NCBI GenBank assembly: GCA_947184155.2
Contig: CAMXCT020006756.1
Coordinates: 379,001 to 443,000, forward strand
DNA: 64,000 nt
Source of the DNA: Cladocopium goreaui
Lineage: Eukaryota > Sar > Dinophyceae > Suessiales > Symbiodiniaceae
Direction of reading: 5' to 3'
Below are positions 14,603 through 64,000 of this stretch, piece after piece. The notes under the pieces are model-generated. The model saw nothing but the letters and a program-made list of their open reading frames with translations. It ran no database searches and was not told the DNA's origin. The position numbers and the translations under genes were made by a program. Position 1 is the stretch's first letter. Each line of letters opens with the position of its first letter.

Positions 14603-17600
14603 GCCAACGAAATTCGCTTCATCAAAGACAACGTGGAAGAGGGCAAGAAGGACCAGCCTCACCGGAAAACGCTACGGGTGCACGGTCAGATTGCCCCTAA
14701 TAAATGATCCCCTTGAAGGGAAAACATGGACTGACCCAGCAGTCAAGGATTATTCGCCACCAATAGGGGAACTCTCTTCCTGATGGCCCATATGGTGGCC
14801 CGTCTTTCAGGACATTTTGAACATCAAAAGGGCATGGAAGAGCATGGTGGTGATGCAGCGGAAGGCCCTGAAATTCACGGGCCTCTCCAGTTGCTTGGTA
14901 TACAGATGGGCCCAGGTCGTGGGCCCCTGGGCGGCTCACGGAATACATCGGATATGTGCTACTTATAGCGATATCAAGAAAAGGTATCCTTCACCAGGGG
15001 CTAGCCATCCTGAAGGACCACAACATGGTCAACATGGTGGATTTTGGGGTCGCAAAAAGTGTTGACCCCACACAGTGATCCACCGGATGCAGTTCCTCCT
15101 GAGGATTTGCCAAGACTCGTCCAGATGAAGAGCAGGGAACCGATACCAAAGCCGAGGCCTGTCACCTTTGTTGGCTGCTCTTGGTGGGGACAGAACGGTC
15201 ATACTCAACTGAGATCCGCATGGTGCTGAGCATTGTTTATGTTTGATTATGTGTTTGATTTGTGGTACGCGAAGAGGGAATAATGATGAATTAGTTTTAT
15301 GAGTGCAAAGTATGTGTGTTTGATATGTGTTCTTTCTCCTGGATATATTCAACCCATCCAAATCCCGTGTTGCGAACCGCCCAGGCCGAGATTCTGGCAA
15401 TGCCAGCCATGGAGGAAAGGGAGAAACTCGAGTCCTTCTGGTTCAAGTTTCAGCTTTTTGGCTGATGGCGGACCATGGGGATCCATGGGGGTCCAAAGTT
15501 TTTGAAGCAAAAATGGAGTGAGATACCCATGACATCCCATGACCCATGACCATCCGGTTGCATTGAGGTACCAGGTGAGATGCTGGTAATCAAATTGCTC
15601 CACATGGGCCCGTTTTCAATCCTACTTGGCTCCAGGTTTGTGCAGCACTGTAGAATTTGGCATGATATGGCATGATGAAAAATCGTTTGGCTTGAACCCA
15701 TGGCCAACAGGGATTTCTATGTGCGTTTGTATATACTGGGCGATTGCCAAAAACAGTGACTCATGGCTTCTCTACCTCTCACAGCTACACGGCCTGGGTG
15801 TTGGAAGCAAACCGCCAGGCTGGGTGTTGGCTGTGGCGTGGAAGTGGGTGAGGATGAGGATCGCTTCCCCGTGCGCTTCAGATGTCGCTGGGATTGGAGC
15901 GCCGCTTGTGACACCATTGGAGCGGGTAATGAGTTCCTGTACTGCCAAAGTTTGCGAGCAATCCCATGCGCTTTCAGTTGTTGCCTTTGATTACTGGTAC
16001 TGCAGCAAGTAAGTTTGGCAACATGGGTGAATTGGGTGAATCGCATGATGAATTTAAAAGCTTGACAAACTGCAGAAATTATTCCTCCAGATTCACCAGT
16101 TTCTGTTGGCCAGAAATCGCTTGAGAATGGGGGCCCAAGGGAAGCTAAGCTGCCTGGTGCTGAGGTTTGCTGTTGATTTTCATCCTCCTATCACCAGAGC
16201 ATTGCTCACTGTTGGGCTCTCAGGGTTTAGAAGCGACCGGACCCAGCGGGCAGAATGGTGGCTGCGGTTTTCCCTAGTATCGATCCATGAACACCATAGT
16301 ATTTAGTCATATTTGGCATATATCAATATCTAATAATATCTATATGTATATATATATATGGATATATATATATCCCATTCAATGAGCTCATAACTATACA
16401 ATATATACAATGACCTCACCACAATGTGATGGTGGGGGGAAATCATCCCAACAAATGGCTGATTTCAGGGAATGACACGCATGTGTGGCCCCTTAGCTAG
16501 CGGGCCGGTGGTATTCTCCCTGTTCTTCAAGCAAATATATAGGTCTATTTCAAGGGCGCGAATATCTGTATATATCTTTGAGTACTATATCCGCGAAGGC
16601 TCCGCAAAAGTGAATTTCCGACACATGGATTCCGCAAAAGCAAAATGCACACCGCGAAAGTTTCGCGAAAGAGATTTCGATAGAGAAGAGCGCATAGAAC
16701 AAAAGTTGTGAAGGTTTCGGACATGCCTGAGATGAATCTTTGGATGATAAAGAAGCCATAGGCCCATAGGCAAGCTGGGTAATTTTCTGCATTATTTGCG
16801 AAAGAAATGAATTTAGTGACTTGGTCCAGAGGCTGCTGAGTTTCTTCTTCAGCCTAGTGTTCGTCACTTTGAATGTCCTCCTCAGCCGGGGATCCCAGCT
16901 CTGGGATTCCATCTGAACCTGCTGCTTTTGGGGACCATTTTATACCATTTTTTGGGAGTAATCAACAGGTCTAAACAGACTTTCCATAGGCAAACTAAAC
17001 CTCAGATGGTGAGCAGAGCTCCGGTTCTGAGGGCGGTGCCCTGGACCTAGAGCCTGAAACTGACCCATTGCCAGAAGGTTTGTGATGAAGAAACAGACGG
17101 CAGCGGCGGTTTCAAATTGAGCATTCTTAGTGATCTTAGTGTTCTTGTGCGGGTGTATGATCTTGGGGTGTTGGGGGGTCAGACCTGGAAAAGAACAGAG
17201 TTGCTCATGTTGCTCTCACATCTATCGTGTTCTATGCATTACTAGAGCCGATCGGTTTGCCCAATACCAGTCCCTGCCAGCCAACCCAAAGTGTGGTTGA
17301 CACTGCCAGGTGATCCTTCTCACGTTCCTCAGATCTGGAAAATGGGCAGTTGGGAACTATATAATCTTAACCAAAAGAGATGAGATGCAATGATTTCTAA
17401 GATCTAGCCATTGCCTATAATCTGGTCATCGGTTGTGGATGATTGTGGATGATTGTGGCACCAAAATGGTTGTAGATGATGTGCGTTAACGATGCAGCTC
17501 TTTTGTCATGTCTCCGGCATTGGTTGCTGTCATGGTGATTGATAGCCGCTGGCCACTACTACATGCCACTACACTATTCGGTACTCCGGGATGCTCCGAG

Positions 17601-20600
17601 TGATTGAATGATTGAATATGGGTTTGTCTGAAAATAGTGTACCCCTACACCCAATGGTTAGTGATCATTATCCCTACTAAATGGCTATAATTGGGGGTAT
17701 ACCCCATTTTCAGACATACCCATATGATTGAATATGATTGAATCCTATTTTTGTTTCCTTTTGTTTCCTAGGATGATGCCCCTCAGATGCAAATCATTCC
17801 ATTGAACCCTCCCGGAATTTGCAGTCATTGGAGATCCGACTGAACCCTGGGCTCCCAACCTGACCTAGACTTCATTCTTCCAAGCTAAGCCAAACTGTAC
17901 GCCCCTGAGCCAATTTGATGCTCAACCCCCTTGTCTTGGGAATTGATCATCCCAAAACAATAATGACCGCCCTAAGTTCAAATGCAAACGAACCGCCAAG
18001 GTATTGGTTTGATCCATTTTGATCCTCTAGTAGTTCCATCCTCTGTGGCATCCACCATTTGGTTCTACGAGTTCCACGAGTTCCATGTCCGTCAGGTGAT
18101 CATTGCGAGTTTGTCGGTCAGTAGCTGCTGCTTAGCCTTCGTCCTCTACGACTTTCTGGACATCGACCCTCGGCGACGAACGAAACTAGCTGCAGCTGGG
18201 GCTTGGTTGGAAGCTGGTTGATATCCATTGGACCACAGCTACAAACCATCCCCAAAATCACCATAAATGGGTGCTACAAACCATCCCCAAATGCTACAGT
18301 AGCTTTATGGCTTTGGGTTTCCCACATTCATGTAATGATTCCTTATTATCCAGGATGAACATGGATGAACACCAAAGTTGCATGTGCACAAGGCCTTCCA
18401 ACAAAGAAATGGCCGTCTAATGGTACCCCCAACCGATGCAAGGACAGCGTGCAGCGCCTTGAACAGCAGATTGCAGAGATGAAGGCGCAATCCTGGCTGA
18501 TATTGGCTGATTGGACCTTGGAAAGTGTTGTAATTTGGCCCGAAATTCTATGCCGTACATGCTTGATGATTATTGATGATTAGATGTGCATGAGCAGAAT
18601 TTGTCCTGAAATGCCTGAAATTCCAAAAAGTACTTAGGAGGTGCAATCGGCCACTAGCCTTGTGCCAACTGCTTTGCCAAACATGCTAAACATTTTATAA
18701 CCCAAAATTCATCTTGTGACCCTGTGACGTGCAGGCAACGACCCAACGGGTGGAACGTCGTCGGCAAGACTTGCAGGCAAAGGGTATGGGCCTGGCATAT
18801 GATGTTTTGGAACAAAATAACTTGACAAAACCACTTACATGTAATGATTTTTCTGATTTTTCTGATTCGTTTGGGACATATATGGAAATATTGAGTCACT
18901 AGCGGCCAGAATCAATTGTCATCAAATATCATGTCACAATTGTCGTGCCACTGAGTCTGTGGGCCACCACCTGTGCCGAAAGAATTGTGGACCTCCAAAA
19001 TCCAAGAATATCCCAATAATATCCAATTAATAACCTCCAAGACCCCAAAAGTCACTAGGATGCATTAGGCCCTGTCAAACTTATCAGGCCATCTTAGGGG
19101 TACTTGGGGCCAGGCCTTCTTTGCGCGTGTGCACCTGCTGATGTCACTGTGGCAGATGAGGACCTTGCCACGATTGGAGATGTTCCTTGGACTGGGCTTG
19201 AAGCGCAACAACCTCCAAGTAGGTGATGGTTTCGTGCTAGAACCTATTTGGCACGTTTTTATAGGTGTCTCGGTGTCTCTCTATCGTGTTGTCAGCAGAC
19301 CTGGGTTTTAGATGGTTTCAGGTTGAAGCAGCTGGGCATCATGCTGGAAGATGAGGAAGTCAGCGCCTGGCCTGACATCTTTGACCGTCCCAGGGCTCTG
19401 ATAGTGTTAGTTGTATTGTGGAAGCCGTTGGAACGCATTATGATATATTATATAATATATGATATAATTACATTAAATGATGTTCCATGTTGAAGTTCGG
19501 TAGCAGTACATTTTTTACCGGAGGTTTTCCAAGTCAAGGATCTGTTTGAAAGCCTTTGGCTGCATCCAATTCTTGATCCTTTGGCCATCAGAGATGCGTT
19601 TGATGTATAATTATATGTTCTTCATAGTTCTTCATATAATAATCCATATACTCATCGACGTAATTGGCGTCACAGTGCAGATCTATTCCATCCTATTCCT
19701 TCATCCATTGTCCATCTATCCGCAGCCTCGGAGGGGCCCTGGGGTCGGCTGAGGTGCCATGCAAGCCGTGCTGCATGTGCCTCGGCTGCAGGATTTTCAG
19801 CCCTTTTTGTCCCTGATGGATCGAACTGGAACCACAGGATTTGCCACAGAGATTGGTGAGGCATCCCATGTGCCAGGCCAGACTCAGTCAGTAGGAAAAA
19901 AAGATGATGACACACCGGAACATGATGGATTGACGCTTCCATCACTAGGCATGTAATTGTGTAGTGCTTCCAAGACATTGCCCCTCCAATTTTCGAAGAT
20001 GTATGACCCTCCCTGGGATGCTGCTAGGAAATGGTGGACAAGTTGAGGGCTTTGGAAAGCACCATGCTGCCTTTGCCATTGTGGCAAGAGGATGGTGCCT
20101 TGAGTCCCCTGGACTAGAACTGGAACCTGGAAAATCTATCGGGGCTTAATGGGGCTTAAGAGAGTTTACGGAAATTTGATGGGATTTTGGATGGATCTTC
20201 AGAGAATTTGACAGAGGTCTCAGGATGTCAACTCCGTGGCCTTGCGTGGCTAGATAAGTTTGCTGAGTCCAACAGACCACATGCAGGTCATGGTTGGAAT
20301 ATGCATGAATATTCCACATAGATAAAGTAATAAAATAATATAAAAATATATAAAATATATAAAGTGCATTGTTTCCTTCCTCATCCTTTATTACAAACAT
20401 TTACAAACACATGTTATAATACGGCTGCTAAAGCCGCTCAACAGGTCCATCTCAGATTGATGCGCTGAGGTCCATCGCAGAAGTACGACTTCTTGCAGCT
20501 CCTCCAGCCGTTAAGCACATCCACTGGCAAGGCCTGACGTTCGAATCGTTCATCGATTTGGAGGATTGATTTCCACATTTCTATAGCAACCTGCTGTAGT

Positions 20601-21170
20601 GGGTTACATATGGGTTACATATGGTTTTCCAGCAGAGCGCAAATCATGTATGTATCGTGTATATAGTATATATATATAGTATATATATATAGTATATATA
20701 TATATATATAGTATATATATATAGTATATATATATATGTATCTCTGTGTGTGTGTTGGTTTGGTAGATGACTGCCATTAACCAAATGTGGTGATGTGTTG
20801 GTATCGGCCATGCCCTTACCGTAACCCCCAGGAGTTGATGGTGCGCTTGCCGGACGCCACAGTGGCCCTGAGGGAACTGATGAATCAAATTCTGGATTCG
20901 CGTGCGCCTGCCTGAACTCATACATCAAGATGAAAACTATAGTAGTTATAGAGATCTGTAGAATCTGCGACACCTAGAAGGGGCTGAAAAGATCTGAAAA
21001 GACTAATTAGTATCCTGCCTATGTAGGTGGGATCTGATCCTTTGTTGTATTGAATATTTACGAGGAAAGCCCACAGGTATCCTCCAACCAATTTTTTCTC
21101 CTTTCAACACTATAGAGAGGCCATGGCACACCGACTCTTGACTGCTCGACTTGAGAAAAAGCGTCGATAG
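14603..21170 (+). CDS. Many-exon protein of unknown family, one TM segment and coiled coil
   Basis: I do not recognise the family. The last eleven exons form one phase-consistent chain: 18096-18158, 18443-18484, 18735-18776, 19114-19218, 19299-19403, 19524-19592, 19792-19848, 20028-20094, 20445-20563, 20832-20903, 21120-21170 (792 nt, 263 residues plus TAG). It begins with a hydrophobic stretch (VIIASLSVSSCCLAFVLYD), then a charged coiled coil (DSVQRLEQQIAEMK, then ATTQRVERRRQDLQ), and ends in LTARLEKKRR. Donors in this chain are GA, GC, GC, GT, GT, GA, GA, GT, GA, GC. Weaker upstream exons are 14603-14677 (with FIKDNVEEGKKDQPHRKTLR), 14811-14886, 14998-15058, 15104-15156, 15385-15446 (with ILAMPAMEEREKLESFWF), 15785-15818, 15859-15925 and 17006-17077. 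The true 5' end is unknown, and the 45-nt intron at 15059 is suspiciously short. Confidence 0.6.
16326..16376. repeat. AT microsatellite in intron
   Basis: (TA)n with a GGATATATATATATCC palindrome inside a large intron of the unknown gene. Confidence 0.8.
17616..17725. mobile_element. Hairpin MITE, ~110 bp
   Basis: The left arm ATATGGGTTTGTCTGAAAAT (17616 on) pairs with the right arm ATTTTCAGACATACCCATAT (ending 17725), with one mismatch in 20. ATGATTGAAT-like sequence lies on both outer sides and could be a target duplication. The element sits in an intron. Confidence 0.75.
18232..18298. repeat. Dispersed repeat containing CTACAAACCATCCCCAAA
   Basis: CTACAAACCATCCCCAAA occurs twice (18238 and 18274) around AATCACCATAAATGGGTG. 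A diverged relative lies at 56702-56770. Confidence 0.6.
20655..20738. repeat. (TATATAG/TA)n microsatellite in intron
   Basis: AGTATATATATATAG units repeat between exons 20445-20563 and 20832-20903. Confidence 0.9.
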
Positions 21171-22341: not shown

Positions 22342-25300
22342 ATGAAGAAGGGACGTGCGGCCAAGCAATGCCACTCGGATTCAGCGCGGGATCTCGGGAC
22401 TTTGAAATTTCGAGGTTCGGGCACAGCTAAAACTTTAGAGAAGCAAGTGGCCCCCCAAACGAAGGTTGGATGTACAAGATGAATCAAGATGACCTGTTGG
22501 TTTCTTTGGTACTCTTGCCCTAAGCTGTGCCCTCCGGCCTTGAAATTGTTGGATACTTGAGACTTGAGACTCATGTACTTCAACCTTGGTGACCCGTTGT
22601 TTATTCTTTTTAGGCATTGAATGGAGCAACAGCACACATCACCAAAACGTCTGAGACTGATTGAACATAGCCAGTTTATTGATGGTATATATATAGTCGA
22701 CATCAATAAGTAGCCACAGTTACGTCATAGTTCCTGCCATCTGGACTGCAGCCGGTGGAAGTTCCAGTGTAATGAGTCAGGTAAGATGCGCATGGCGCAG
22801 GGTTGCAGCGTGGCCTCCCTGTTGAACTGTGCTGACAACAGTGGAGCCAAGTGACCCGTCTATAGCTGGATGGTTTCGACTGGAAATGAATGGAACATCC
22901 CTACGATGGATGATCTGGATTGATTTGGAGGTACCCCAATTTTAGGAAACCTCCAATTTGTTTTTAATTTTTTTAAAGGAATCTTTGAAGTTTAGAGCTA
23001 CTTTTCGTATTTACCACCCCCATGACTGTTCGGAACAGTTGAATTTTTATCCGACTGTTCAAAATGTTTGCCGTGGAACACCATGGATCTACAGTACCCT
23101 TCTTGGTCCAGCCATCGTTTTAGTGGTCCCAACTGGGTTCTTTGCTTGAAAGATTATGAGTTAAATTATCAATGTATACCATTGGTGAGGTATTTGCGGG
23201 GACGGGTTCCTGGCTATACCTGAACTTGGAAGGAACCTCTACATCTTTGCGGTGATTGGCATCGGCGGGCGCTTGAACAAGCTTCCGAACTTTGCCAGAA
23301 ATAATACTTTGAGATTGCAAATCTTAATTGTATGAGATTATATGCATAATAGGTGCTGGTGGTCTCCCAAATCAATCCGAAAGAACCGCCCTTCAAGACT
23401 GGTAAGGAACATTGGCATCCATGTCCATCAATTTTGGGGCGATTCAGGGTCCATTTAGTTTGGTGACACGGTAGTGACATCATATCCATACAAATTCCAT
23501 GAGTTTATGGACAACTGCAACCTTCATAGCATCCATTTCCCCCGCTGTGTCTTTTTCTGCCAGGAACTGCTCCCCTGGGGATCTGGTCCTCTGCAGCGTC
23601 AAGAAGGGCAAGCCCGAGCTGCGCAAGAAGGTCCTGAAGGGCGTGGTGATCCGCCAGAAGAAGGCACGGCAGCCACGTGGAGGAAACAAGCGGCTTATGT
23701 ATCATTGTGATACTTCGTCTATCACTGGATAAGATATATGAATTATAATTGAATAATATATATATATAACATAGACCCGGGCAAGCCGGCGGCGGAAGTT
23801 TCCCAAGAATAAATGACCTATAGTTCAAGGCCAGCCTGTCCCGAGCGTGTCCTTCCCTGGACAAGCGGTTTTTTTTTTCAGCGAGAGACGAAGCAAAGTC
23901 TTCACACTCCACACTTCACACTTCACTCTTCGCACTCCAAACTTCACACTCCACAGTCCACACTTCACACTTCTCACTTCTCACTGCTTCCTTCACAATC
24001 CAAACTTCACACTCCACACTTCACACTTCGCACTTCACAGTCCACACTTCTCACTTCTCACTGCTTCCTTCACACTCCAAACTTCACACTTCACACTTCT
24101 CACTTCGCACTTCACACTCCACACTTCACACTCCACACTTCACAGTCCACACTTCACACTTCTCACTTCGCACTGCTTCCTTCACACTCCAAACCTCACA
24201 CTTCACACTTCTCACTTTGCACTTCACACTCCACACTTCACACTTCACACTTCTCACTTCGCACTTCACACTCCACATTTCACACTTCACACTTCACAGT
24301 CCACACTTCACACTTCTCACTGCTCACTGCTCACTGCTTCCTTCACACTCCAAACTTCACACTTCACACTCACTTCGCACTTCACATTCCACATTTCACA
24401 CTTCACACTTCACAGTCCACACTTCACACTTCTTACTGCTCACTGCTTCCTTCACACTCCAAACTTCACACTTCACACTCCACACTCCACACTTCACACT
24501 GCACTCTTTGCACTCCAAACTTCACACTCCACACTTCACAGTCCACACTTCACTTTCTAGTCATTTATTCTTGGGACACTAATGCCGTCACTTCTACTTC
24601 CCACTGTCATTACCTAAAAAGGGGCCAGTCCAAACAGTTACAATACTCATTGTCACTACAGTTACAGCCACAACGGTCATTGTCAAAGTAGTCTTTGTCA
24701 TAGTATCTATGGTCACAGTAGTCATGATCAGAATAGTCACAGTCACAGTCACATCAGGTATGGTCACACTAATCAAAGTCACGGTGGTCATTTTATGGAG
24801 GTTATCAACATACAACCGCACGAACGATGGAATTACTTCACACTCCACACTTGTCACTTCTCACTGCTTCCTTCACACTCCAAACTTAAACTTCACACTC
24901 CACACTTCACACTTCTCACTTCCCACTGCTTCCTTCACACTGCACACTTCACACTGCACTCTTCACGCCCCACACTTCACTGCTCTAAACCTACGTGCAA
25001 CGGCGTCGGAAAATTGTAGCTCCAAAACCGGATCTCGACGCCAGAGCGAAAAAAAAGACGATTTTGAAGCACTTTTTAAAAGGATTTTTAAAAGGAAAAT
25101 TACTAGCGCCAAAATGGAGGAAATCTGCTGACAAATCACTGTCGCAGCCTTCATGCAGCCACTCCAATACGATTTACGAAGTTCAGCTGCAAAAGACAAT
25201 AGTATTACGCATGCAGCCTCAGCATGAAGCAACCTTGACGCAGCTATTACAATGCGATCTGCGGAGACTGAGTTGCAAAACACAATAGAACTACGCGCAA

Positions 25301-28300
25301 CTGGGTCGGAAATTGCAGGTCCAAAACCGGATCTCGACGCCAGAGCGAAAAAAAAGACGATTTTGAAGCACTTTTTAAAAGGATTTTTAAAAGGAAAATT
25401 ACTAGCGCCAAAATGGAGAAAATCTGCTGACAAATCACTGTCGCAGCCTTCATGCAGCCACTCCAATACGATTTACGAAGTCCAGCTGCAAAAAACAATA
25501 GTATTACGCATGCAGCCGCGGCACCAAGCAACCTTGACGCAGCCATTACAATGCGATCTGCAAAGACTGAGTTGCAAAGCACAATAGAACTACGCGCAAC
25601 TGGGTCGGAAATTGCAGCTCCAAAACCGGATCTCGACGCCAAAGCGAAAAAAAGACGATTTTGAAGCACTTTTTAAAAGGATTTTTAAAAGGAAAATTAC
25701 TAGCCCCAAAATGGAGAAAATCTGCTGACAAATCACTGTCGCAGCCTTCATGCAGCCACTCCAATACGATTTACGAAGTCCAGCTGCAAAAGACAATAGT
25801 ATTACGCATGCAGCCGTGGCAAGAAGCAACCTTGACGCAGCCATTACTATGCGATCTGCAGAGACTGAGTTGCAAAACACAATAGAACTACGCGCAACTG
25901 GGTCGGAAATTGTAGCTCCAAAACCGGATCTCGACGCCAGAGCGAAAAAAAAACGATTTTGAAGCACTTTTTAAAAGGATTTTTAGAAGGAAAATCACTA
26001 GCGCCAAAATGGAGAAAATCTGCTGACAAATCACTGTCGCAGCCTTCATGCAGCCACTCCAATACGATTTATGAAGTCCAGCTGCAAAAGACAATAGTAT
26101 TACGCATGCAGCCAAAAGAGGAAGCAACACTTGCAATCCCATTTACATTGCGGGAACGATCCTACAGTTGCAAAGCGCAATGGAATTCCATCGGCAACTC
26201 ATCCAGGAGCACCACTTGCAATCCCATTTACATTGCGGGAACGATCCTACAGTTGCAAATCACAATGGAATTTCATCGGCAACTCATCCAGGAGCACCAC
26301 TTGCAATCCCATTTACATTGCGGGAACGATCCTACAGTTGCAAATCACAATGGAATTCCATCAGCAACTCATCCACGCAGCAACCACTTGCAATCCCATT
26401 TACATTGCGGGAACGATCCTACAGTTGCAAATCACAAATGGAATTCTGTCGACCGCACATGCACGAAACACAGTTGAAACCCCATTTACAATGCGGAACC
26501 GATCCGACCATATCCGAACATGATCCGAACATGATCCGACCACACACGAGACCGTCTCGCACCCGTCGCACCGCAGAGGTAGATCATCGAGGTTCGGGGA
26601 CGGACTTTGTATGGAAAAACATAGGGTTTCGTGCATCTGCTATCTCTCAAAAACGCATTTCGTGCGAGACTTCCTCCAAAACTCCATCGGCAACTCCTCC
26701 ACCAGTACCACTTGCAATGCCATTTACAGTGAGGGAACGATCCTAGAGTTGCAAATCACAATGGACTTCCATCAGCAACTCATCCACCAGCACCACTTGC
26801 AACCCCATGTTGAAACCCCATTTACAATGCGGAACCGATCCGACCATGATCCGAACATATCCGAGCATGATCCGACCACACACGAGACCGTCTCGCACCC
26901 GTCGCACCGCCGAGGTAGATCATCGAGGTTCGGGGACGCACTTTGTATGGAAAAACATAGGGTTTCGTGCATCTGCTATCTCTCAAAAACGCATTTCGTG
27001 CGAGACTTCCTTCAAAACTCCATCGGCAACTCATCCAGCAGCACCACTTGCAATGCCATTTACAGTGAGGGAAACGATCCTAGAGTTTGCAATCACAATG
27101 ACTTCCATCGCAACTCATCCACCAGCACCACTTGCAACCCCATTTACAATGCGGGAACGATCCTACAGTTGCAAACCACAATGGAATTCTGTCGACCACA
27201 CATGCACGAAAAACATTTGAAACCCCATTTACAATGCGGAACCGATCCGACCATGATCCGAACATATCCGAGCATGATCCGACCACACACGAGACCGTCT
27301 CCGCACCCACACGAGACCGTCTCGCACCCGTCGCACAGCAGAGGTAGATCATCGAGGTTCGGGGACGACTTTGTATGGAAAAACATAGGCTTTCGTGCAT
27401 CTGCTATCTCTCAAAAACGCATTTCGTGCGAGACTTCCTTCAAAACTCCATCGGCAACTCCTCCACCAGCACCACTTGCAATGCCATTTGCAGTGAGGGA
27501 ACGATCCTAGAGTTTTAACTCTTTCTTTGACTAACTCTTTCCCTGACTAACTGTTTCTTTGACTAACTCTTTCCCTGACTAACTGTTTCTTTGCTAACCC
27601 TCACTAACTCTTTCTTTGACTAACTCTTTCCCTGACTATCTGTTTCTTTGACTAACTCTTTGTTTGACTAACTCTTTCTTGACTAACTCTTGACTAACTC
27701 TTTCTTTGACTAACTCTTTCCCTCACTAACTCTTTCTTTGACTAACTCTTTCCCTGACTAACTGTTTCTTTGACTAACTCTTTGTTTGACTAACTCTTTC
27801 TTTGACTAACTCTTCCCCTGACTAACTCTTTGCTACTACTAACTCTTTCTTTGACTAACTCTTTCCCTGACTAACTGTTTCTTTGACTAACTCTTTCTTT
27901 GACTAACTCTTTCCTAACTCTTTCCCTGACTAACTCTTTCTTTGACTAACTCTTTCCCTGACTAACTGTTTCTTTGACTAACTCTTTCTTTGACTAACTC
28001 TTTCTTTGACTAACTCTTTCCTTGACTAACTCTTTCTTTGACTAACTCTTTCCCTGACTAACTGTTTCTTTGACTAACTCTTTCTTTGACTAACTCTTTC
28101 TTTAACTAACTCTTTCCCTGACTAACTGTTTCTTTGACTAACTCTTTCTTTGACTAACTGTTTCTTTGCTAACTCTTTCCCTCACTAACTCTTTCTTTGA
28201 CTAACTCTTTCCCTGACTAACTGTTTCTTTGACTACCTCTTTGTTTGACTAACTCTTTCCCTCACTAACTCTTTCTTTGACTAACTCTTTCCCTGACATT

Positions 28301-29518
28301 CCTAAAAGTCCGTAACACGGAAGTTTCTCCCCCTAAACTTCCTTTGATTATATTCTGATAGGATAGGGTACAGTACTTGTGCCAATCATGGACATGTAAT
28401 GATCAGCTTGGCACTCTCAAGAACGCTATGACTACTGTCAGGCCTGGCGCCGCCGTGAGGGAGTCTTCGTATACTTCGAGGACAATGCCGGGGTCATCGT
28501 CAACGACAAGGGTGAGATGAAACTTGGATGATTTAGTAACAGTTAGTTGTGAGCCAACGCCATGGTGCCATGAATGGTGCGCCATAGTGCTATGGATCCA
28601 ATGGATGGTGCCATGGAGGATGCATTGGCCACTTAGTTCTATTTGATGGTGCTTTGTTTCTGGAAAACAAATGTTCAGCTCTGAAGGAGAGTTTCAAGGG
28701 GCTTCCCACTTTTTGCAGTTTAAGTTGGGGGGTGCTGTAGGATGTAGTCAAGTTAATCCACGTTTTCAGCTGCAAGCAGCCATGAATGCAATATTCCAAA
28801 ATGGTTTTGAACACGGCCGCTCTGTTAATACAACCTGCAGAGAACCTCCAGGTCAATTCTCTGCATGGAAAGTGGATTTGAGTTCATCACAATCACAATC
28901 ACAGACGACACACACACACACACGTAAGTGCCTCAGATAGGTTTGTTAGTGCTTGTGAGGGTCAGGGTATCCAGTGCCGCTTTTGACAGATGATGTGAGT
29001 GAACCAGTGTCTTCACCCTTTTCTTGATTTTCCCCTCAGCTGATCCTAAGTGGGCCCCCAAAATAAACAGATCCGATACTTGGCCCTTGTGCCTGGGTGG
29101 ATATTTGATGCAGTGGCAAAACTGTACACCATCATGTTCTCCATAAAACAATGTAATTTCACATGTCTGGATTAGTCCAGAGGGGACTGATGCTTGCAGT
29201 TTTTAATCCGCTTGGAGCTTGGCTCAGGAAGGGTTCGGCAATTCAGGGCCCTGTGGCCAAGGAGAGGGGCGGATGAGTGGTTCAGACCATGCCTAAATGA
29301 CCTAGAACATTGGAAAATTGCAACAAAGTCTCGGGAATGACGTAGAAACTAGCTTGAAATGCAAGCCCTCAAGACTAAACAAATGGCTTTGGACAATAGG
29401 CAAACAATTTCCAACTCACGTCTTGGCATGCTATTTTTAGCTTGTTTTCCTTGTGAGCCCGAAGGAGTGCGCAGAGCTTTGGCCCAAGATCGCATCTTGC
29501 GCACCTGCCATTTGCTGA
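22342..29518 (+). CDS. RPL23: 60S ribosomal protein L23 (uL14), seven exons
   Basis: Core 60S protein of the uL14 family, which lies at the subunit interface near the factor-binding site. Exons: 22342-22354 (tentative start), 22781-22850, 23233-23286, 23564-23663, 28442-28518, 29228-29261, 29465-29518. They join in frame to 133 residues plus TGA; the family is usually about 140. Diagnostic stretches appear in family order: [103 protein letters not shown]. Donors are GT, GT, GA, GC, GA, GA; acceptors are all AG|G. No frame break is seen, so the gene looks functional. The start exon (MKKGR) is the weakest part: it fits the phase and the basic N-terminus, but the Gly/Ser-rich segment usual before KxRI/M is missing. 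Confidence 0.9.
22925..22956. repeat. Small hairpin, partial MITE relative
   Basis: TTGGAGGT and ACCTCCAA are exact inverted 8-mers. The right part, read on the minus strand, contains TGGAGGTTTCCTAAAATTGG, nearly identical to the left arm at 36017. Confidence 0.65.
23903..24553. repeat. 7-bp minisatellite (CACTTCA/CACTCCA)n in RPL23 intron 4
   Basis: Over 90 imperfect heptamers (CACTTCA, CACTCCA, AACTTCA, CAGTCCA), interrupted several times by CTGCTTCCTTCACA, so a longer superunit of roughly 80-130 bp is also visible. The large Ser/His/Thr frames here follow from the repeat and are not genes. Confidence 0.95.
24630..24800. repeat. Degenerate GTCA/GTCACA-rich block
   Basis: Loose repeats of the type GTCACAGTAGTCATGGTCA between the two heptamer blocks. 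Confidence 0.6.
24838..24985. repeat. Second block of the 7-bp minisatellite
   Basis: The same CACTTCA/CACTCCA heptamers resume, with CTGCTTCCTTCACACT interruptions. Confidence 0.9.
25014..26125. repeat. ~299-bp tandem repeat, 3.7 copies
   Basis: CCAAAACCGGATCTCGACGC starts at 25022, 25321, 25620 and 25918. Each unit contains CACTTTTTAAAAGGATTTTT, ACAAATCACTGTCGCAGCC and a TACGCATGCAGCC box. Copies are highly similar. Open frames that repeat in step with the unit are by-products. Confidence 0.95.
26127..26460. repeat. ~85-bp tandem repeat, four copies
   Basis: TTGCAATCCCATTTACATTG starts at 26131, 26216, 26301 and 26388. Each unit ends with a CAACTCATCCAGGAGCACCA-like box. Confidence 0.95.
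26461..27512. repeat. ~340-410-bp tandem repeat, three copies, built on the 85-bp unit
   Basis: Copies restart with GAAACCCCATTTACAATGCG near 26475, 26813 and 27219. Each has the unit GATCCGACCA..ACACGAGACCGTCTCGCACC, ATCATCGAGGTTCGGGGACG and CATTTCGTGCGAGACTTCC, then a variant of the 85-bp repeat. The array therefore looks like the 85-bp unit with a block inserted and amplified. Confidence 0.9.
27513..28298. repeat. 16-bp minisatellite (GACTAACTCTTTCTTT)n
   Basis: About 48 units alternating GACTAACTCTTTCTTT, GACTAACTCTTTCCCT and GACTAACTGTTTCTTT, with a few shortened units. It ends about 145 bp before the exon that starts at 28442. Confidence 0.95.
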
Positions 29519-39958: not shown

Positions 39959-40576
39959 GTGAAGTACCTCCTTCGCCATAGCTTATTTTCACTGGGATGT
40001 GTTAGCTACCGACAGATACAAGGCGCATCTATGGGCTCACAGTGGGCCCCAGTTGTATGTTCACTAGTTGCCCTACATCGAGAGCACACCTACAGCATGC
40101 CTTTTGGACAAGCCATTTTTTCTGGAAAACTTTTTAGTTCCTTTCGTTATGTTGACAACCGTCTGCTTTTGGGTCCACAACAACTCACTGATCGCCTTCG
40201 ACAAACTTGCTTTTGGAATTTAGACTTCTACACCTCGCCCATTCTTTTGGAAGAAGTACAGGGTTTTGATGCACTTGGATTCAACATCAATCCACATCAA
40301 CGTACCATTACATCGGTATTGCCTTGGGACACAGTGATACGCACTTCCGCTGGTTTTGGACCTAGAAGCTCCATGTATACAGGTCTCATTGCTCGAACAC
40401 GTCTAATTTTACAAAATACTTTTCCTCGTGAACTTCAACTTCCTCAAGTTCAAGACCTGCTCGCCCTTCATACCCTTCAGGAACCTAGATACCGCGAATG
40501 CATTCCTCAGATCATTTCGATTGCCCGCAGTTTTGGACACAAATGGACCAGACAACAATTGACACCGTTTGACTGA
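39959..40576 (+). CDS. Reverse transcriptase domain fragment, copy 1
   Basis: 205 codons to TGA with no in-frame ATG at the start; the frame opens just after an upstream stop, so it is a truncated or spliced-in piece. YRQIQGASMGSQWAPVVCS matches the QxxGxxMGSxxAP motif of reverse transcriptases. FRYVDNRLLL occupies the catalytic-box position, normally YVDD, so the second aspartate is replaced by Asn. LGFNI follows, as in the usual thumb-side motif. The element type is inferred. Confidence 0.75.
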   Translation: MKYLLRHSLFSLGCVSYRQIQGASMGSQWAPVVCSLVALHREHTYSMPFGQAIFSGKLFSSFRYVDNRLLLGPQQLTDRLRQTCFWNLDFYTSPILLEEVQGFDALGFNINPHQRTITSVLPWDTVIRTSAGFGPRSSMYTGLIARTRLILQNTFPRELQLPQVQDLLALHTLQEPRYRECIPQIISIARSFGHKWTRQQLTPFD

Positions 40577-41258: not shown

Positions 41259-41775
41259 TACAAACTTTGGATTGCATCATATTCAATCATTTCGCCAATA
41301 ACAATTAACACCTTTTAATCTAACCATGTCCTTTCCATTTCGACTTTATTTATCGCGATTTCTTTGATCTACGTGGTCTACTTGCTCTACACGCAGTCTT
41401 TCAGAATTTGCCTTCCATGTGAAGGGGGTGCCCAACGGGCGAATGGTGCCCATAGGGCGAAGGTGGCCATGTGCCGAAGGATTTTATTGGCCGGGAACCC
41501 TACTTCTTACTGTCATTTTATGAGTTTTCACCTTCTCTTTCAAATCAATTTACAATTGTGAGGACAAGAGATCAATTTGAAGAGATCTAGAATATAGGAA
41601 GACCTATCACAAAAGTGTGCGGACACACATAGTTTGTGATGCTCGAACCAAGCAGAATGTCAAACACGGTAGGGACCTTATCGCTGCAGATGTGTGTACG
41701 ATCTTGATTCATGTTTTCGAGGTTTTCTACTGAGCGAACACTTCAAACCAATCCAATAATTGAGACCATAGTCTT

Positions 41776-42393
41776 GTGAAGTACCTCCTTCGCCATAGCT
41801 TATTTTCACTGGGATGTGTTAGCTACCGACAGATACAAGGCGCATCTATGGGCTCACAGTGGGCCCCAGTTGTATGTTCACTAGTTGCCCTACATCGAGA
41901 GCACACCTACAGCATGCTTTTTGGACAAGCCATTTTTTCTGAAAAACTTTTTAGTTCCTTTCGTTATGTTGACAACCGTCTGCTTTTGGGTCCACAACAA
42001 CTCACTGATCGCCTTCGACAAACTTGCTTTTGGAATTTAGACTTCTACACCTCGCCCATTCTTTTGGAAGAAGTACAGGGTTTTGATGCACTTGGATTCA
42101 ACATCAATCCACATCAACGTACCATTACATCGGTATTGCCTTGGGACACAGTGATACGCACTTCCGCTGGTTTTGGACCTAGAAGCTCCATGTATACAGG
42201 TCTCATTGCTCGAACACGTCTAATTTTACAAAATACTTTTCCTCGTGAACTTCAACTTCCTCAAGTTCAAGACCTGCTCGCCCTTCATACCCTTCAGAAA
42301 CCTAGATACCGCGAATGCATTCCTCAGATCATTTCGATTGCCCGCAGTTTTGGACACAAATGGACCAGACAACAATTGACACCGTTTGACTGA
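41776..42393 (+). CDS. Reverse transcriptase domain fragment, copy 2
   Basis: As copy 1 with three amino-acid changes (Pro to Leu after TYSM, Gly to Glu before KLFSS, Glu to Lys in LQxPRY). It keeps MGSQWAP and the same YVDN box, so the Asn predates the duplication. Confidence 0.75.
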   Translation: MKYLLRHSLFSLGCVSYRQIQGASMGSQWAPVVCSLVALHREHTYSMLFGQAIFSEKLFSSFRYVDNRLLLGPQQLTDRLRQTCFWNLDFYTSPILLEEVQGFDALGFNINPHQRTITSVLPWDTVIRTSAGFGPRSSMYTGLIARTRLILQNTFPRELQLPQVQDLLALHTLQKPRYRECIPQIISIARSFGHKWTRQQLTPFD

Positions 42394-54781: not shown

Positions 54782-57700
54782 GAGCACTGAGCACAGTTCT
54801 AGGTCGGTTGGAAGCCAAGGATTTGTCTTGCAAAACCAGCCCATTCAATGCTTGGATCCTCCGGTTTTCTTCAGACTCCATACCTTTAGGTTTGAAGTTC
54901 GTTGGATGAGGAATGTTGCCAGTAGAACAGCGCCATATATCCTTGGCAGAGGTCAAAAATGATTCCTCAATCCCAGATAGTTTACTACATTCATGGCTCC
55001 GCACCACTTCCAACCGGGTCCATTCAGAATCTCAGTTCCTTGGAAGAAAACCTTAAAGATTGGGACAGTTCTCTTGCATTTAACCCATTAAAACATGACC
55101 ATTAAAAACCACTCAAAAACACCCCTGGGAGTAGGGCCTATCCTTCCTTGAGGTGGCTGATGCCTACCAGCAGCATGCCCAGCAGCGGCCCGGCGGAAAT
55201 GATGCGTTTCTTATTGCAGGGCTATTTATTTTTTATTTTTGGATTCTGTTTTTTCTGCTTTTCCTGCTTTTCCTGCTTCTGCTTCCGTGCTTCTCTGCTT
55301 TTCCGTTTTTTTGCTTTTCGTGCTTCTCTGCTTTTCTGCTTTCAACTCTTTTGCTTTTCTGCTTTTCTTGCCTCTCTTTTTTCAGCCCCTCTGCTGCCTC
55401 TGCTTTTCCGTTTTTGTTTGCCTTTCGTACATCTCTGCTTTTCCGCTTTTCTGCTTCTGCGCCTTTCTACTTCTACTGGTTTTTCTGCAGTCACGCGCTT
55501 TTGCTGCTCTACTTCTTCCTGCTCCTCTGCTTCTTTGCTTCCTTCATTTACTGTCTCTCTGCTTTTCTGCTTCCTTTGCTTTATTCTTTCCTGCTTGTAT
55601 ACTTACCTCTTTGCTTTCGTGCTTCTAATTCCTATTCTTTTGGACATTTGTGTTCTTTGCTAAAACCCTAAATGAATCCCTAAAGAAACCCTGAATGAAG
55701 CCCTAAATGAAACCGTTCAAATTTCCCTTCAGCCTCGCAGTAATGAAACCCCAAAGAATCCTTAAATGAAACTTTAAAAGAAACTCAGAAACTCCCAAGT
55801 AAAACCGTAAATGAAACCTTGCAGAAACCCGAAAGAAACCCTAAACGAAACCCTAAAGAAACGTTACATGAAACCCTAAAAGAAACTCTATAAAGAAAGC
55901 GTATTTTTGTTGCCACAATGTAGAGGTTCTAGTTCCAAACTGTTGCGAATACAAGGCAAATGGATGCAAATGGTACCAGGCAAGAAATCATCAAAGAAAC
56001 TGACCCCTCAAAAAAAACAACAACAAAAACTATTCTTCACCCGTCTTCGCCCTTTCTTATTTAGCTCTTTAAATCGTTGATGTATACATGCGCATACACA
56101 CAAATTGTGTAAATAATGTATGAGTATACACTATATTTAAACACGCACACACACACATATATATAATGTATACACACACACGCATATTTTTGTAGTATTT
56201 GTGTATTTGTTTGAATGTTTTCGAGTTTTTGCAGGGGCCCTAGCAGATGAGAGGTTTGGGGCAATCTCTTGACAGGCATGTGACAGCTGCAGGCAACTGG
56301 GCTTGGCACCTCAGAAGAGCAAAGATGCCATTCCTGTGGGTTGGAAAGTCATATCATACAAACCCAAAAAAGATAGAACCGTGATATATCACCATTTTAG
56401 TAGGATTGCGCATTTCTATCTTTTTGGGGTTTACTACATATTGTATAGTTGGGAATGATCTGAAACCAATTGGATATTTGGGAATGGATTGAAATCGGGG
56501 ATTGCTAAGCCATTCTCTAGGAAAGGGTATGATGATGGATGAAATGGAAAACCAATCTTCATTGGGGATGATTTGGACGTCTGATTCTACTACATTCTCC
56601 TTAGAAAAACACATTTTAGTTGGCGATGATTTCATTCCTTCCTTTCGAAAATGGATCATGATGATGGTCCTCGGTTGGCTCATTTGTAACGTGGTCAACC
56701 CAATGAGAAATCATCCCCAAAATTACCATATATAAATATTAAATGGGTGCCATGAACCACCCCAAATGGTAGGTTCATTTCTGGGTTTCGTACATTGCAT
56801 GGGAACCAGACACACCAAAAAATGCTGTCCTCCCATAAATATCATGCGGATGTTTTGTTTTGCCATTAGGCTGCCAGGAGTGTGCAGCCCCTTGCCATGA
56901 TTCCTTCTTCGGTACCTAAGGCGCACGGTGTGTACCAGCAGCATCTACAACAGTCTGGTCTTCTCAGAGGTTTGCAGTTGTGATCATAGATGGATGTGAG
57001 AATTTCTAATGGCGAACGCCATGCCTGTTGAATTCCAATTGGATTTCTAAGGGACATGCAATGATATACGTGTTGCTCGTATTTTTTTAAGAGATGGCAA
57101 GGGTAAATCTATCCATGTTCTGATTGGCAATATCATCCAAGGCTTGCAGGTCATCCATCATCAATTTCCCTCTAAGAGTGGCAATAAATTGGGATACTCC
57201 CAACTTTGGACAAACGCAATTACCTAGCAGACACACACAATTTGCCATAAGATCCATGTTTGGCTGAGGCACATTGACCCAGCACACCAATGGGCCAGGG
57301 TCCTCGGGATTGCCCGGGTGGTTTCCATGACACGTCTACTGGGCTGCTTGGGGAGCCGGCTTTGATCCAGGTCAAGATTGCATTCGTGTGCTGAGGCGTC
57401 AGATGCCTACCATCAGCATCTCGCTCCACACGTCAACAACGTTCATCGCTATTTTGCCGGTCATTCCCCTGGGTAGACGACTTAGCACAGACTATGCAGG
57501 TGGACAACTACTGATGATGATGGTCGTGATGCTCGTGATGAGGATGCCAATGTCAATGCCAACGCGCACGTGATTTGTTACCCCTATTTCTGATTATGAT
57601 GTTGAACATGTCCACGTCAACTGCCTCTACCATTTCCATCCCTTTCCTTGTTGTTTTGTGTGTTTCCTGGTTGCTGTCCATCATTTCCCCGTGCTCAGGC

Positions 57701-59024: not shown

Positions 59025-62000
59025 ATGGTTGGGCCGCCAAATGCCTGGCCGGCGCCGGGCTTGGCCTGGTGGCGGCAGCGGGTCTTCGCGCGTACCTCAC
59101 ACGGAGGCGGGCTTCGGCAGTGAGCTTCGCTAGGATCAGTCGCAAATTTTGGGAGAAAAGTTGGGTGTATTTTTAGGATGTTTGAGATAAACTATCACCA
59201 AATATGCAAATTTGAGTTGATGTCCCGGTGAAAAAAAGTCTGAAAGTTGAGAAAATCGTGCCAAACAAATACAAGCCATCTAGAAATTAAGTTTGAATAT
59301 CACTCATCTACTGATCCACTAGTTTGATGATTTTGATGTAGCACCAGATCATACCAGATCATATCAGAATCATCTAGGAACCTTGGGCCTTTTGATGGCC
59401 TTTTCCCATCTTATCCCATCTTATCCCATCTCCACAGTCTCCACAGTCTCCACAGTCTCCAAGGCCCAAGGGCTATCGCCGACCAAAGTGGCGTGCGCTT
59501 CCTGAGGGCGATCTCTTGCAGCAAGGCTTCAAGATGAGCCGAGTCCCAGAGGACACATGGAAGCCAGGTGACGTGATCTTAGGATATTTTAGGGGACTGT
59601 GGAAATCTATTGGGTGTGTATAGCGCATTTTGAATTTTGTAGTAGATGAATGTGGATGAGGTGTATGTTCTTTACTTTCAAGTTTCAAGTCAACACTTGC
59701 AGTTTCATGATGTACCCATATGTGTAGTATGGTTGTGTCACGTTGATTATGAGCCCGAGTCAAATGCCCAACCGGAGTGACCGGTTTAAGCACGAAAGAT
59801 TAGGTAAGTAAGTGGATATAGAAGGCGGTCAGCATGAACGGCGAGCTGCCTCCTGTCCGGAAGCAAGATTAAGTAATTAGCAAAAATTGAGGGGCCACCG
59901 AACCGGGCTGAAATAATTTCGTGAGTTTATGAGTTTAACTGTCCGGACTCACCAACACGTAGACGCAACAACATGGCCAAGAGCTGTTTTGCATGAATCA
60001 TTGAGAAGGTAACATCATGATCATCGTGGCCATGACCGGACCAATTTTGTTGTCGACCCTGGCAGATGAGCGGAGGACTTGGATTTCATCGTCATTGGAA
60101 GTGGCATGGGCGGCCTCTGGTTGTCAGCTGCGCTCACGAAGTGTGGCTACAAAGTCTTGGTCCTTGAGCAGTTTCTTGGTGGCGAGATCTAGGAGCCAAG
60201 ACTAAACGGCTCTGAAGTAGTGAGTATAGTGAGTATTTTCATCATTTTCAATACTTTCAATCTCAATAATTTTCAGTAATTACTGGTGAGATGAAACCGG
60301 TTGAGCCCAGGCACTACATCGCTGGGGGATGCTGCCATGCCTTCAGTCAGAATGGTGTGGAGTTCACACCAGGCCACGCCAAATGGATCTAAGTGGTGGC
60401 TGTTTATATCGATGTTGATTTCATTTATTGCAGTATATTGCAGTGTATTCAGCAAATGGCATTGGAAGCTGATGTTCTGAGACTTTTCAAGATGGACAAT
60501 TTTTCGGCAGATTTATGTTGAAATAAGTTGAATATGGTCGCCGTGTGTCGCTGTGCAGGGCATTGGCTGATAGTTGTGACATGCCGGAACCACGAATCAT
60601 GGGGATGCATCCAGCAAACTGGGATAATGGAACTGGTGACAGTATGATAGAACCCCCTATGGCATAGATATGCTGTTTTGGGGTCAACATTCTAGGAAGT
60701 CATTTAATGACTTCCTAGAATGTTGGCCGGAGGAGTAATAGAACTTCCAGCAACGATCCCATTTTGTTTGCACCCAAGTGTGCACATTCTGGTAGCAACT
60801 TGCATGTCAAGGGCCAAAACATGCCATAACCACTCATGTGGAAGACCAGGTGCAGCAAGCCTGTAGTCACAGACAAATTTCACAGCATTTCATAGCCCAA
60901 ATGCAGCGGAAAAATGCCCAGGCATTCATTACATTGGAGACATCGACATGGCGAAAGGATTGCTGGGAGCGGTAGGTGATCCTGAGTTCAAGGCAGCTGG
61001 TGCTGGGAATAGATGTTCTCCATGATCATCGGCCAATGACTGGGTTATATACGGATTTTTATTGAAATCTGACCAGCTGGAAATAAATAGCAAAGAGACA
61101 GAAATTCACTGAATCCGACCAGCCCGTACCAGGTGGACTGGCATCAGTTAGGAAGTTCGGAAGATGGAGGTCTCTACGACAAGGCCTTGTTTGGTGATCG
61201 AGAGCCTATCCTCCTGCGCCAGGTCGTAGGGGTTAGGGGTTTGTCTCGGGGGATGGGTTCCAAGGCCTTGACAATGGGGAAAATATGGGAAAATGCTGTC
61301 CGAAATTTTAAGGCCATGGGATGGTATGGGGTTTCAACACGTTTCAACATTTTGGAGACAACCCTGTAGGGTTGATATTGTTTTGCCATCAACGGATGGA
61401 ATGATGAGTTTTTTTCCTGGGTGGTTGTGGGGAGTGCAAGCCCTTTGACCCTCAATGGAGTTCATGGAGCATGCCAATGGGGTAATCCTCGAAGTGTTTT
61501 GATGCATCGACGCGTCAGCTCAGATCCCAGTTATGAGCTGGTCAAGACATGTCGAGAATCCTGTTACGACGTGCATGCGATTGTCCTATCTGGGGTTATC
61601 TGTTTGGAAGTTGATCTACCTATATAATTAATTATAATTATAGTCATAGTGAATAATTATTAGTGTGTGTATATATATATATCATATATATATATATATT
61701 GTATATAAAACCCAAGCAATACATGGGAATGTCCCACTTCCATGGTGGTCCTCGATAGACACTGGGCCACAGGGACGCGATGCATGGTATGCCGAGATGT
61801 GCAAACACATGCCCGGCAAGGAGAGCAACTGGATGGGAGCTTCGGGGCAAGTGATCCCTGGATGGATTGCAAAATGGCTCGGGAAAGGTGATTTAAGTGA
61901 TGCAACCAGCATGTTTCGCTTTTTTTTGTACGACGTTTAGGGGATACTGAGACTGTTTGAAAGGAAGGAATCTTGAACTAGACGCTTGAAAGACCTGTTT

Positions 62001-64000
62001 TTACACTATTTGATGCTGAACGTGTTTCTTTTCGCTTCCCAGCTTTACTTCGATGATTTGATATCATATAATAGCATAGCTAGTGACACCGCAAAGGAAA
62101 GATAATTGCTTCATCAAGATGATACTGCGGATGGAAGAAATCCTGCACCAGTCGGTAAATGGTTTATCCATCTTTATCCTATTAGAACTCTTTATTTACA
62201 GTGATTCATCGTTACCAATAGTTACCAACTGGTGATGAATCACCGAGCTCTCGGCAGGAGAAGCTGTTGAAAGGCTGGTTGGCTGCGCTTGACGAGGCGA
62301 GATATGGAAAACCCATGGTTTCCTTAGGAAAATGATGTAAAATGATTTGCACATAGTGGGTTCTCCACATCTTTAGATTACAGGAGGAAATTTGTGTTTG
62401 TATGGGTTAATGTCTTAGACTCTGACTTTGGAATCAGGGTGATCTTAATGGATTGCCAGAGCACAAACTGTTATAATGTTTGGTGACACCTCACAGAAGT
62501 GCGCCCAGTAGCCCTTGAAGCCAGTCTGGGGTACACAGGTGCACTGTCAATCCTATAATCTTATTTAGTGAAAAACATATCGTCAGACTCACAAATTATG
62601 TGAAGGTAAAGGGGTCATCAACACTGAGCCGACGTCTTCATTCCTCAGCCCCGCAGAAATCATCAACTGAGTATCGACCACGATGCTACATGGCATGAGC
62701 ACACATAGCACCCTATCTTCCCTCGCAGCTCAGAAATAAGTATCAACATCAAAATGAGTTTTCCGGAGAACCGTTCCATTTTTTCTATTCTACCGGTAAT
62801 GTTTCGTCAGGTCAAGGAGTTCCCTGCCTTTGTTTCAAAAAGCACGCTAGTTTCAAACGCAGTTCCCAATTTTGTTTGTGTATAATCCATTATAATCCTC
62901 TCCTCCTAATACTAAACCCCCCTCCCCAAATAACAAACACCTCAGGTAGTTTTTATTATTAATTAGGGTGGTATTTATTTTTAGGGAACCAAAGCGGACC
63001 CTAATAATGAATTTATGCTCTTGAAAAAAAACTATTTTTTCGATTTCAAAATCAATTAAATTTCCTTTTATAACGCAATATTAAAATATTGCCAAAAATT
63101 GGATTTCGAAGCTTCCCCCTAATATTAAATTCAAAACCTTATCATAAAAAACAATAAAAATCGGACGGACCCTAAAAAAACACACCGGGGTTGACTAGTT
63201 GTTATTATTAGGGGGTAAAACCCACAAATAGTAGCTTTATGTGTATTATTCTTTTTGAAGGGGATCAATTAAAAGTCAAATTGGCCAACCTGAAGTTTTC
63301 CAAAATTGGAGATGGATCCTAGTTTTTATTATTCGGGGTTGGTTAGTAATAGGGGGAATGGATTATCTATCCAAATCCTGGATTTCTTCATTATTAGTCT
63401 CTCAACTTCATCTTTTTTTCAAGTTCCATCCTCCCATCTTTGACATCTTCGATTTGCCAGGCCAAGAAGGCCTTCATGCCGCTGTTCTTCGCCAAAGCAT
63501 GGCAGCCCTGCACCCAGTGGTGCTGGCTGCGGCTTTGCTGCCGCCCTGGGCTGAAGTGGGCGGGGAAGACGGTGCACCAGGCCGGTGCTGGTTCCTAAAA
63601 ATGGCCATGGAAAAACGTGGTGAAATCTCCCCACCTTTGGTAATTTAGCCATGGAAAATCACCATTTGAGATTTAAAAAAAGGTGAATCCATGATTTCCA
63701 TGTCTAAATGAATGATTATCACCATGATTTAACAATGATTTAACCATGGTTATCACCATGATTATCACCATTTGGAAAATCACCATTTGAATCATCTATG
63801 ATGGTTTGGTTTGGTACACTGTCAGTCCCAATTGTGGAAAAACTTCCGGTGGCTGACATATTCGATTCAGCAAAACTGCTACTAATTAATCTTCAGGTCC
63901 GAGTACTTGTGCTGTACCAGGGGCCGCTCAAACAGACATTTCTGACGATAGGGTACAACAACAATGGAGTTGAAGGAAATTGAAGACAGCAAAGAATGAG
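59025..64000 (+). CDS. RETSAT: Retinol saturase / carotenoid isomerase-like FAD oxidoreductase (3' incomplete)
   Basis: Family role: FAD-dependent saturation or isomerisation of polyenes, in the membrane. Exons: 59025-59121 (hydrophobic LAGAGLGLVAAAGLRAYL then Arg-rich, a likely membrane anchor or targeting segment), 59464-59569 (QQGFKMSRVPEDTWKPG), 60076-60170 (dinucleotide fold: FIVIGSGMGGLWLSAALTKC then GYKVLVLE), 60311-60372 (AGGCCHAFSQNGVEFTP), 60922-60971 (IHYIGDIDMAKGLLG), 61133-61222 (VDWHQLGSSEDGGLYDKALF), 61773-~61830 (RDAWYAEMCKHMPGKE), ~62101-62154 (FIKMILRMEEILHQS), 63461-63571 (AKKAFMPLFFAKAW and KWAGKT), 63897 on. The GGCCHxFxxNGxEF and GIHYIG blocks are typical of this family. 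Donors seen include GA (59122 and 59570), GT (60171) and GC (60373). The segment around 60971-61132 and the ends of 61773/62101 are uncertain. The C-terminal half lies beyond the window. Confidence 0.75.
60685..60725. repeat. Perfect 41-nt palindrome
   Basis: CAACATTCTAGGAAGTCATT, one T, then its exact reverse complement. It lies in an intron of the oxidoreductase gene. Confidence 0.95.
61660..61702. repeat. (AT)n microsatellite
   Basis: Intronic TATATATATATATCATATAT run. Confidence 0.9.
62201..62246. repeat. Short hairpin
   Basis: GTGATTCATC at 62201 is mirrored by GATGAATCAC ending at 62244. Intronic. Confidence 0.6.
62881..63370. mobile_element. Foldback element ~490 bp in an intron
   Basis: The left end ATAATCCATT..CCTCCTAATACTAAACC and the right end GGTTAGTAATAGGGGGAATG then GATTAT are approximate inverted copies. 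The AT-rich interior repeats CCTAATAAT/ATTATTAGG motifs in both directions. No coding. Confidence 0.6.
63695..63800. repeat. ATTATCACCATG-type imperfect repeat
   Basis: Several GATTATCACCAT, GATTTAACCATG and AAATCACCATTTGA units in the last full intron of the window. Confidence 0.7.

Follow-up and report, generated by a model that had tools for sequence, protein, structure and literature searches.

An origin of introns through insertion of DNA that duplicates its target is already published for dinoflagellates, and GT, GC and GA splice donors have long been recorded in this group (a table in PMC5177918; the review PMC11453091). Here, we set against these described systems the introns of a 64,000-nucleotide stretch of the Cladocopium goreaui genome (contig C6115, bases 379001-443000; hereafter the window), mainly those of its RPL23 (uL14) gene and of a putative flavin adenine dinucleotide (FAD) oxidoreductase gene, together with a larger sample from the same genome. 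In Symbiodinium microadriaticum, introners are described in which a 4-bp duplication gives the donor and the element carries the acceptor (Gozashti et al. 2022, PMC9860276, Fig. 2 legend). The arrangement proposed here would be the same, and GC and GA donors occur in the introner families of that survey as they do in our sample. The S. microadriaticum example differs in bearing terminal inverted repeats and in being one of a family of similar introns; the introns tested here show neither an end-to-end family nor inverted repeats. Introner elements of Amoebophrya (Farhat et al. 2021, PMC7789003) are described with direct repeats of 3-5 nt over the exon/intron borders, comparable to ours, but also with inverted repeats of 8-20 nt and highly variable splice motifs, whereas our introns combine GC, GT or GA donors with an AG acceptor imposed by the aligner. 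Identically repeated intron boundaries, the same observation as here, are attributed in that article to Mendez et al. 2015 for a dinoflagellate tandem array. For Polarella and other dinoflagellates, Roy et al. 2023, as summarised in the review PMC11453091, reportedly describe intron gain by insertion in intron-rich genes, as here, though through many recent insertions rather than the decayed traces we observe. In the present analysis, the proposed insertion scar also seems to explain the unusual GA splice sites.

Introns of C. goreaui repeat, in their first four bases, the first bases of the following exon more often than the splice consensus accounts for. The expectation was obtained by re-pairing donors with the acceptors of other introns, which preserves the consensus. 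Among 131 introns, intron bases 2-4 (offsets +1 to +3) match the exon at 152 of 393 positions, compared with 104.3 expected (sd 8.8, z 5.4, 0 of 20000 permutations), with 61 matches against 37.5 at +1, 45 against 33.4 at +2 and 46 against 33.3 at +3. The excess persists when the donor dinucleotide is left out and +2 and +3 are taken alone (91 of 262 against 66.7, p 0.0007). It stops abruptly beyond base 4: offset +4 lies below the null (21 against 30.2), and both +4 to +6 (96 against 96.7) and +7 to +9 (95 against 95.7) agree with it. A constant limit of four bases, the first being the G with which every selected exon opens, fits a GNNN duplication. At least two bases are shared in 61 introns, where 37.3 are expected, and at least four in 11, where 3.0 are expected. 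The preliminary description of this window, which reported repeats at intron after intron and listed matches only, was right about a real excess and overstated its regularity, as these 61 of 131 introns indicate. Its proposed comparison with the splice consensus, now run, bears it out on this point: shared length exceeds what AG followed by G (AG/G) predicts. An earlier set of 110 introns agrees (128 of 330 against 87.7 at +1 to +3, z 5.1), and so do the 11 introns of the window taken separately, whose summed shared length is 22 against 15.6 after re-pairing (p 0.013) and of which six share at least two bases (3.3 expected, p 0.068). Before the non-matching first RPL23 intron was added, the window set numbered 10 introns and had given p 0.005-0.011.

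Leftward of the junction, there is nothing to add to the consensus. The preliminary description extended some matches to the left, and the AAGGAG strings at 29259 and 29462 are indeed present; across the sample, however, offsets -3 to -5 match at 107 of 393 positions against 102 expected. Offsets -1 and -2 are uninformative because all acceptors end in AG, so the duplication could reach six bases.

These counts depend on how the sample was assembled. The genome searched comprises 1.166 Gb in 6202 contigs, and the window has a GC content of ~45%; searches of viral and prokaryotic collections gave no relatives. Homology fixes 11 introns in the window, six in RPL23 and five in the oxidoreductase gene, and this set was enlarged by drawing on chaperonin genes and on paralogues of RPL23. 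Host chaperonin genes were located with a PF00118 profile search, and six CCT loci (CCT5 in part only) were aligned with human CCT proteins as guides. A purpose-written spliced aligner, blind to repeats, weighted GT, GC and GA donors equally, penalised GG, required AG and preferred AG/G. A filter on flank score and AG/G passed 120 of 143 introns and dropped 23; nine of the 120 were taken out afterwards, three from CCT5 beyond residue 98 and six from HSP60, for which alignment to the reference (score 80) made no sense. The final sample consists of 111 CCT introns, 15 from three RPL23 copies and five from the oxidoreductase gene, the last 20 being curated; the earlier sets, both the 110 introns and the 90 CCT introns used for the control reruns below, still contained the three CCT5 introns. 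Since three RPL23 positions are present in two copies each, the 131 introns are not all fully independent. Several dropped introns have good flanks and an AG that does not precede G (for example, CCT1 residues 115 and 194, CCT6 residues 94 and 260), so the AG/G rule is partly imposed. Intron length in the sample has a median of 288 and a mean of 544 bases; means of 388-658 are given for four Symbiodiniaceae and of 1296-1408 for Polarella (PMC7245778). Together with the GC content and the genes present, these lengths are in keeping with a member of the Symbiodiniaceae. A codon model used to predict genes ab initio proved too weak for exon ends, and no counts were drawn from it. Contigs C1 and C2380 each hold three full-length intronless chaperonin genes and probably represent companion bacteria in the assembly.

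GA donors in particular are mirrored by the exon. The 131 donors comprise 63 GC, 38 GT and 30 GA, a partly free result given that AG was required, AG/G selected and GG penalised; with GG allowed, 3 of 129 donors read GG. After a GA donor, the next exon starts with GA in 26 of 30 cases, while an exonic A in this place follows only 22 of the 101 other donors (p 1.5e-10). GC donors are mirrored more weakly (21 of 63 against 10 of 68, p 0.014), and the corresponding link for GT donors (14 of 38 against 26 of 93) is not significant. Introns sharing a single base (70 in all) have 42 GC, 24 GT and four GA donors, and 26 of the 61 introns sharing at least two bases have a GA donor. When GA was penalised by 14 half-bits in the CCT and RPL23 introns (n=122, oxidoreductase excluded), 18 of the 19 GA donors that persisted were mirrored. 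Read most simply, GA would be a birth state that is lost when the donor turns into GC or GT and that rarely returns.

A CTTGGC-like motif (at least five of six letters) begins at base 5 (offset +4) in 19 of 131 introns, compared with 0-4 introns at each of 14 other offsets. Such a motif is expected if the inserted DNA begins there, but it could also be a splicing signal. In addition, RPL23 copies within this genome differ in their intron positions. A genome search identified an intronless copy (L036, at C5938:86297-86680), intron-bearing copies on C1771 (with C5260 carrying identical introns) and C2491, and a partial duplicate of the 3' end of the window gene on C2146. The proteins of the window copy and of C1771 are identical to that of the intronless copy over 138 residues and that of C2491 over its 121 aligned residues, with third codon positions 37-41% different in all pairs among the four copies. 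The window copy has six fixed introns, C1771 four and C2491 five, at 12 positions altogether, of which three are common to two copies and nine occur in one (the first 12 residues of C2491 are unaligned). This comparison does not separate gain from loss, and we infer the direction of gain; Symbiodinium intron gain is reported for a different gene family in PMC4201569. Recycled complementary DNA (cDNA) would explain the pattern among the copies, because an intronless copy exists and the 5' flank of its start contains a stretch that, compared by eye, resembles a relic spliced leader. A spliced-leader search of the window gave three matches with two mismatches, all within a tandem array and taken as chance.

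Together, these features lead us to propose that most of these introns arose when inserted DNA duplicated four bases of its target, GNNN, the left copy supplying the donor; we place the probability of this origin at roughly two in three. An insertion would duplicate four target bases beginning with G, of which the left copy would become the first four bases of the intron, so that the target supplies the donor, and the right copy would open the following exon. Directly after the left copy would come the inserted DNA, which would also bring the AG acceptor. Because the two copies would have drifted apart since, a partial match survives. At targets reading GA, a GA donor would be the birth state left as it was, and GC and GT donors would be either birth states or later improvements. 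Target duplication predicts an excess over AG/G, a four-base limit and differing RPL23 intron positions, and all three fit the introner-type insertion that the preliminary description had suggested. A locus-specific duplication beyond the consensus is accordingly seen as a statistical excess (z 5.4, n=131).

Other findings weigh against an insertion origin, and part of the earlier suggestion is not supported. No end-to-end likeness emerged from an all-against-all comparison of 110 introns (30 later ones not included), and terminal inverted repeats were not found, with z 1.4 at best and 4.8 against 4.6 bases in the strict set. A DNA search with two window introns gave, among the 40 matches scored out of 174 candidates and outside a few exon-adjacent bases and the window itself, no match to the first query intron beyond about base 143 and none to the second. 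If GA introns were simply the youngest, they should match better at +2 and +3, but they do so at 23 of 60 positions compared with 31 of 76 in GT introns, so this idea is not supported by these offsets. The cuts themselves rest on homology, a required AG and an AG/G that was preferred and then selected, and one of eight control reruns (described below) reached z 3.0 at +4 to +6, so a lone z of about 3 is to be taken with caution. The introns of this sample thus behave like products of introner insertion, but strict membership in an introner family is not seen among them.

Repeats do occur inside the introns. In the 110-intron set, 36 intron pairs share internal stretches of up to ~115 bp in either orientation. 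A dispersed repeat of ~100 bp lies at 22862-22974, from base 12 to about base 124 of the RPL23 intron that starts at 22851, with GGGGTACCCC-like blocks near both ends. It takes 36 of the 40 genome matches scored out of 174 candidates, and eight of these 36 start at intron base 12; ten copies were aligned. This repeat may be what is left of the DNA that founded the intron, or it may have inserted later. A ~110-bp repeat family, up to 98% alike and in both orientations, also lies inside introns of several CCT genes (loci L028-L035).

Several alternatives address the same observations. The splice consensus could mimic a repeat, as AG/G occurs on both sides of an intron and junctions picked by eye would add the rest. 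Consensus suffices for the leftward matches, the first G and the list of junctions in the unknown gene discussed below, yet it is kept under re-pairing and still falls short of what is observed, both in the genome sample (z 5.4) and in the window (p 0.013). As sole cause it is refuted, unless RNA moves many cuts, and we regard it as very unlikely. An artefact of spliced alignment is more improbable still. Cuts set by protein homology, for the CCT genes against human reference proteins, invite such an artefact, but the pipeline gives no comparable signal on permuted donor sides. When donor 13-mers were permuted among the CCT introns (n=90) and everything was rerun eight times, z was 1.8, -0.9, -1.5, -0.2, 0.1, -0.3, -0.1 and -0.5, compared with 4.24 for the real CCT set (3.9-5.0 under five alternative settings), and GA donors were mirrored in only 4-8 of 17-21. 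The RPL23 exons, moreover, were set by alignment to the intronless copy's protein.

A different origin would also leave short duplications. Staggered double-strand breaks could be filled in and repaired around captured DNA, with no transposable element involved and with duplications that happen to carry splice signals. Such repair, proposed as a general origin in a survey of 213 introns (PMC11782384), predicts short duplications without inverted repeats or end-to-end families, as seen here. The match nevertheless breaks off abruptly beyond base 4, where offset +4 lies below the null, and is followed at a constant distance by a set motif, which suggests an element whose ends are well defined and whose stagger does not vary; we therefore consider break repair unlikely. 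The main rival on GA donors concerns function and is compatible with any intron origin. Imprecise 5' cleavage at a weak GA would be harmless only if the exon repeats GA, and selection would then keep mirrored GA donors. Both the scarcity of GA donors where one base is shared (4 of 70 against 26 of 61 where at least two are) and the mirroring of 18 of 19 GA donors under the strictest scoring agree with selection of this kind, which leaves the excess at +2 and +3 unexplained and which we judge rather improbable.

The insertion reading extends to a broader proposition about GA donors that we consider evenly poised: that the dinoflagellate GA donor, rather than being a separate splice signal, preserves without change the left copy made when four target bases were duplicated. 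GA would then be possible almost only before an exon starting with GA, donor type would record change since birth, and annotated GA donors would mostly be cuts available in more than one register. The odd GC and GA donors of dinoflagellates would become a by-product of intron origin. If the mirror rule holds across the group, GA need not be recognised by a mechanism of its own to account for splice-site variety in these algae, and donor type might assist in dating introns. Gene models alone suffice to test it: bases 1-4 of each intron are set against the exon that follows, with re-paired introns as controls. We found no statement of the rule in the literature searched, which does not include Roy 2023 and Mendez 2015, the papers closest to the subject, and we therefore do not claim newness.

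The three genes described next lie on the plus strand. A human RPL23 query matches window exons 22771-22851, 23231-23287 and 23577-23684; solved chains of uL14 are matched by the C-terminal exons (E 1e-23). Six introns between exon 1 (22342..22369, from the ATG) and the last exon (29465..29518, with the stop) are fixed by spliced alignment against the intronless copy's protein, together with the paralogues. The first intron (22370..22780) has a GC donor before an exon that starts with GT and shares one base. At this place the exon reads GC both in the intronless copy and in C1771, as does the window donor, so the window exon letter seems to have changed and the intron side to have retained the older sequence. 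The second intron (22851..23232) has a GT donor before GA and again shares one base. At least two bases are common to intron start and next exon in the other four: GAACT (five bases, GA donor) at 23287..23563; GC (two, GC donor; AGGC with the leftward bases) at 23664..28441; GAA (three, GA donor) at 28519..29227, an intron that starts GAAA-CTTGGA; and GAG (three, GA donor; AAGGAG with the leftward bases) at 29262..29464. The matches GAAC, GC, GAA and GAG reported earlier for this gene are therefore confirmed, and the GT listed first (for the intron at 22370) is not. The 4.8-kb intron of this gene contains tandem arrays at 23900-28291 with units of 7, 298, 85, 336 and 16 bp.

The oxidoreductase gene likely encodes an FAD enzyme, as supported by a Pfam NAD_binding_8 match (E 1.9e-6); matches to carotenoid desaturase and isomerase are weak and far below cut-off. 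The enzyme is putatively retinol-saturase-like, and its five junctions were set by hand against homologues. Matches extend past the initial G in two of the five introns: the GA donor intron at 59867..60075 shares GA, and the GC donor intron at 60373..60921 shares GC (CCAGGC with the leftward bases). The three GT donor introns share one base each, at 59573..59824 (where an in-frame GA cut three bases upstream is possible too, likewise sharing one base), at 60171..60310 (starting GTTT-CTTGGT) and at 61223..61772. The GC of the earlier list is thus upheld; the GAC reported there passes over a short exon (59825-59866), and the third match of that list, near 61000-61130, stays a candidate.

The unknown multi-exon gene at 14531..21170 has visible exon cores with junctions that cannot be fixed. 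A Pfam search gave no convincing domain, and a genome search no paralogue or further copy. We allowed all in-frame AG/G cuts among its 11 cores and re-paired downstream cores as decoys. The 10 consecutive core pairs, two of which skip less certain exons, have a summed shared length of 24 against 22.3 (p 0.34). With exon ends that cannot be fixed and this p value, the ten junctions first put forward for this gene are not evidence either way. Within it, 17626-17715 is a stretch resembling a miniature inverted-repeat transposable element (MITE), with facing ends GTCTGAAAAT...ATTTTCAGAC.

Elsewhere in the window, nearly identical 209-aa open frames at 39947-40576 and 41764-42393, the first without a Pfam match, contain an FRYVDN stretch that recalls reverse transcriptases. 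Internal degenerate CCCTAAA repeats at 10162-10559 and 55663-55890 are telomere-like. Copies of a ~1.4-kb unit at 1136-7452 appear as similar minus-strand open frames, with a 30-bp tandem duplication at four places.

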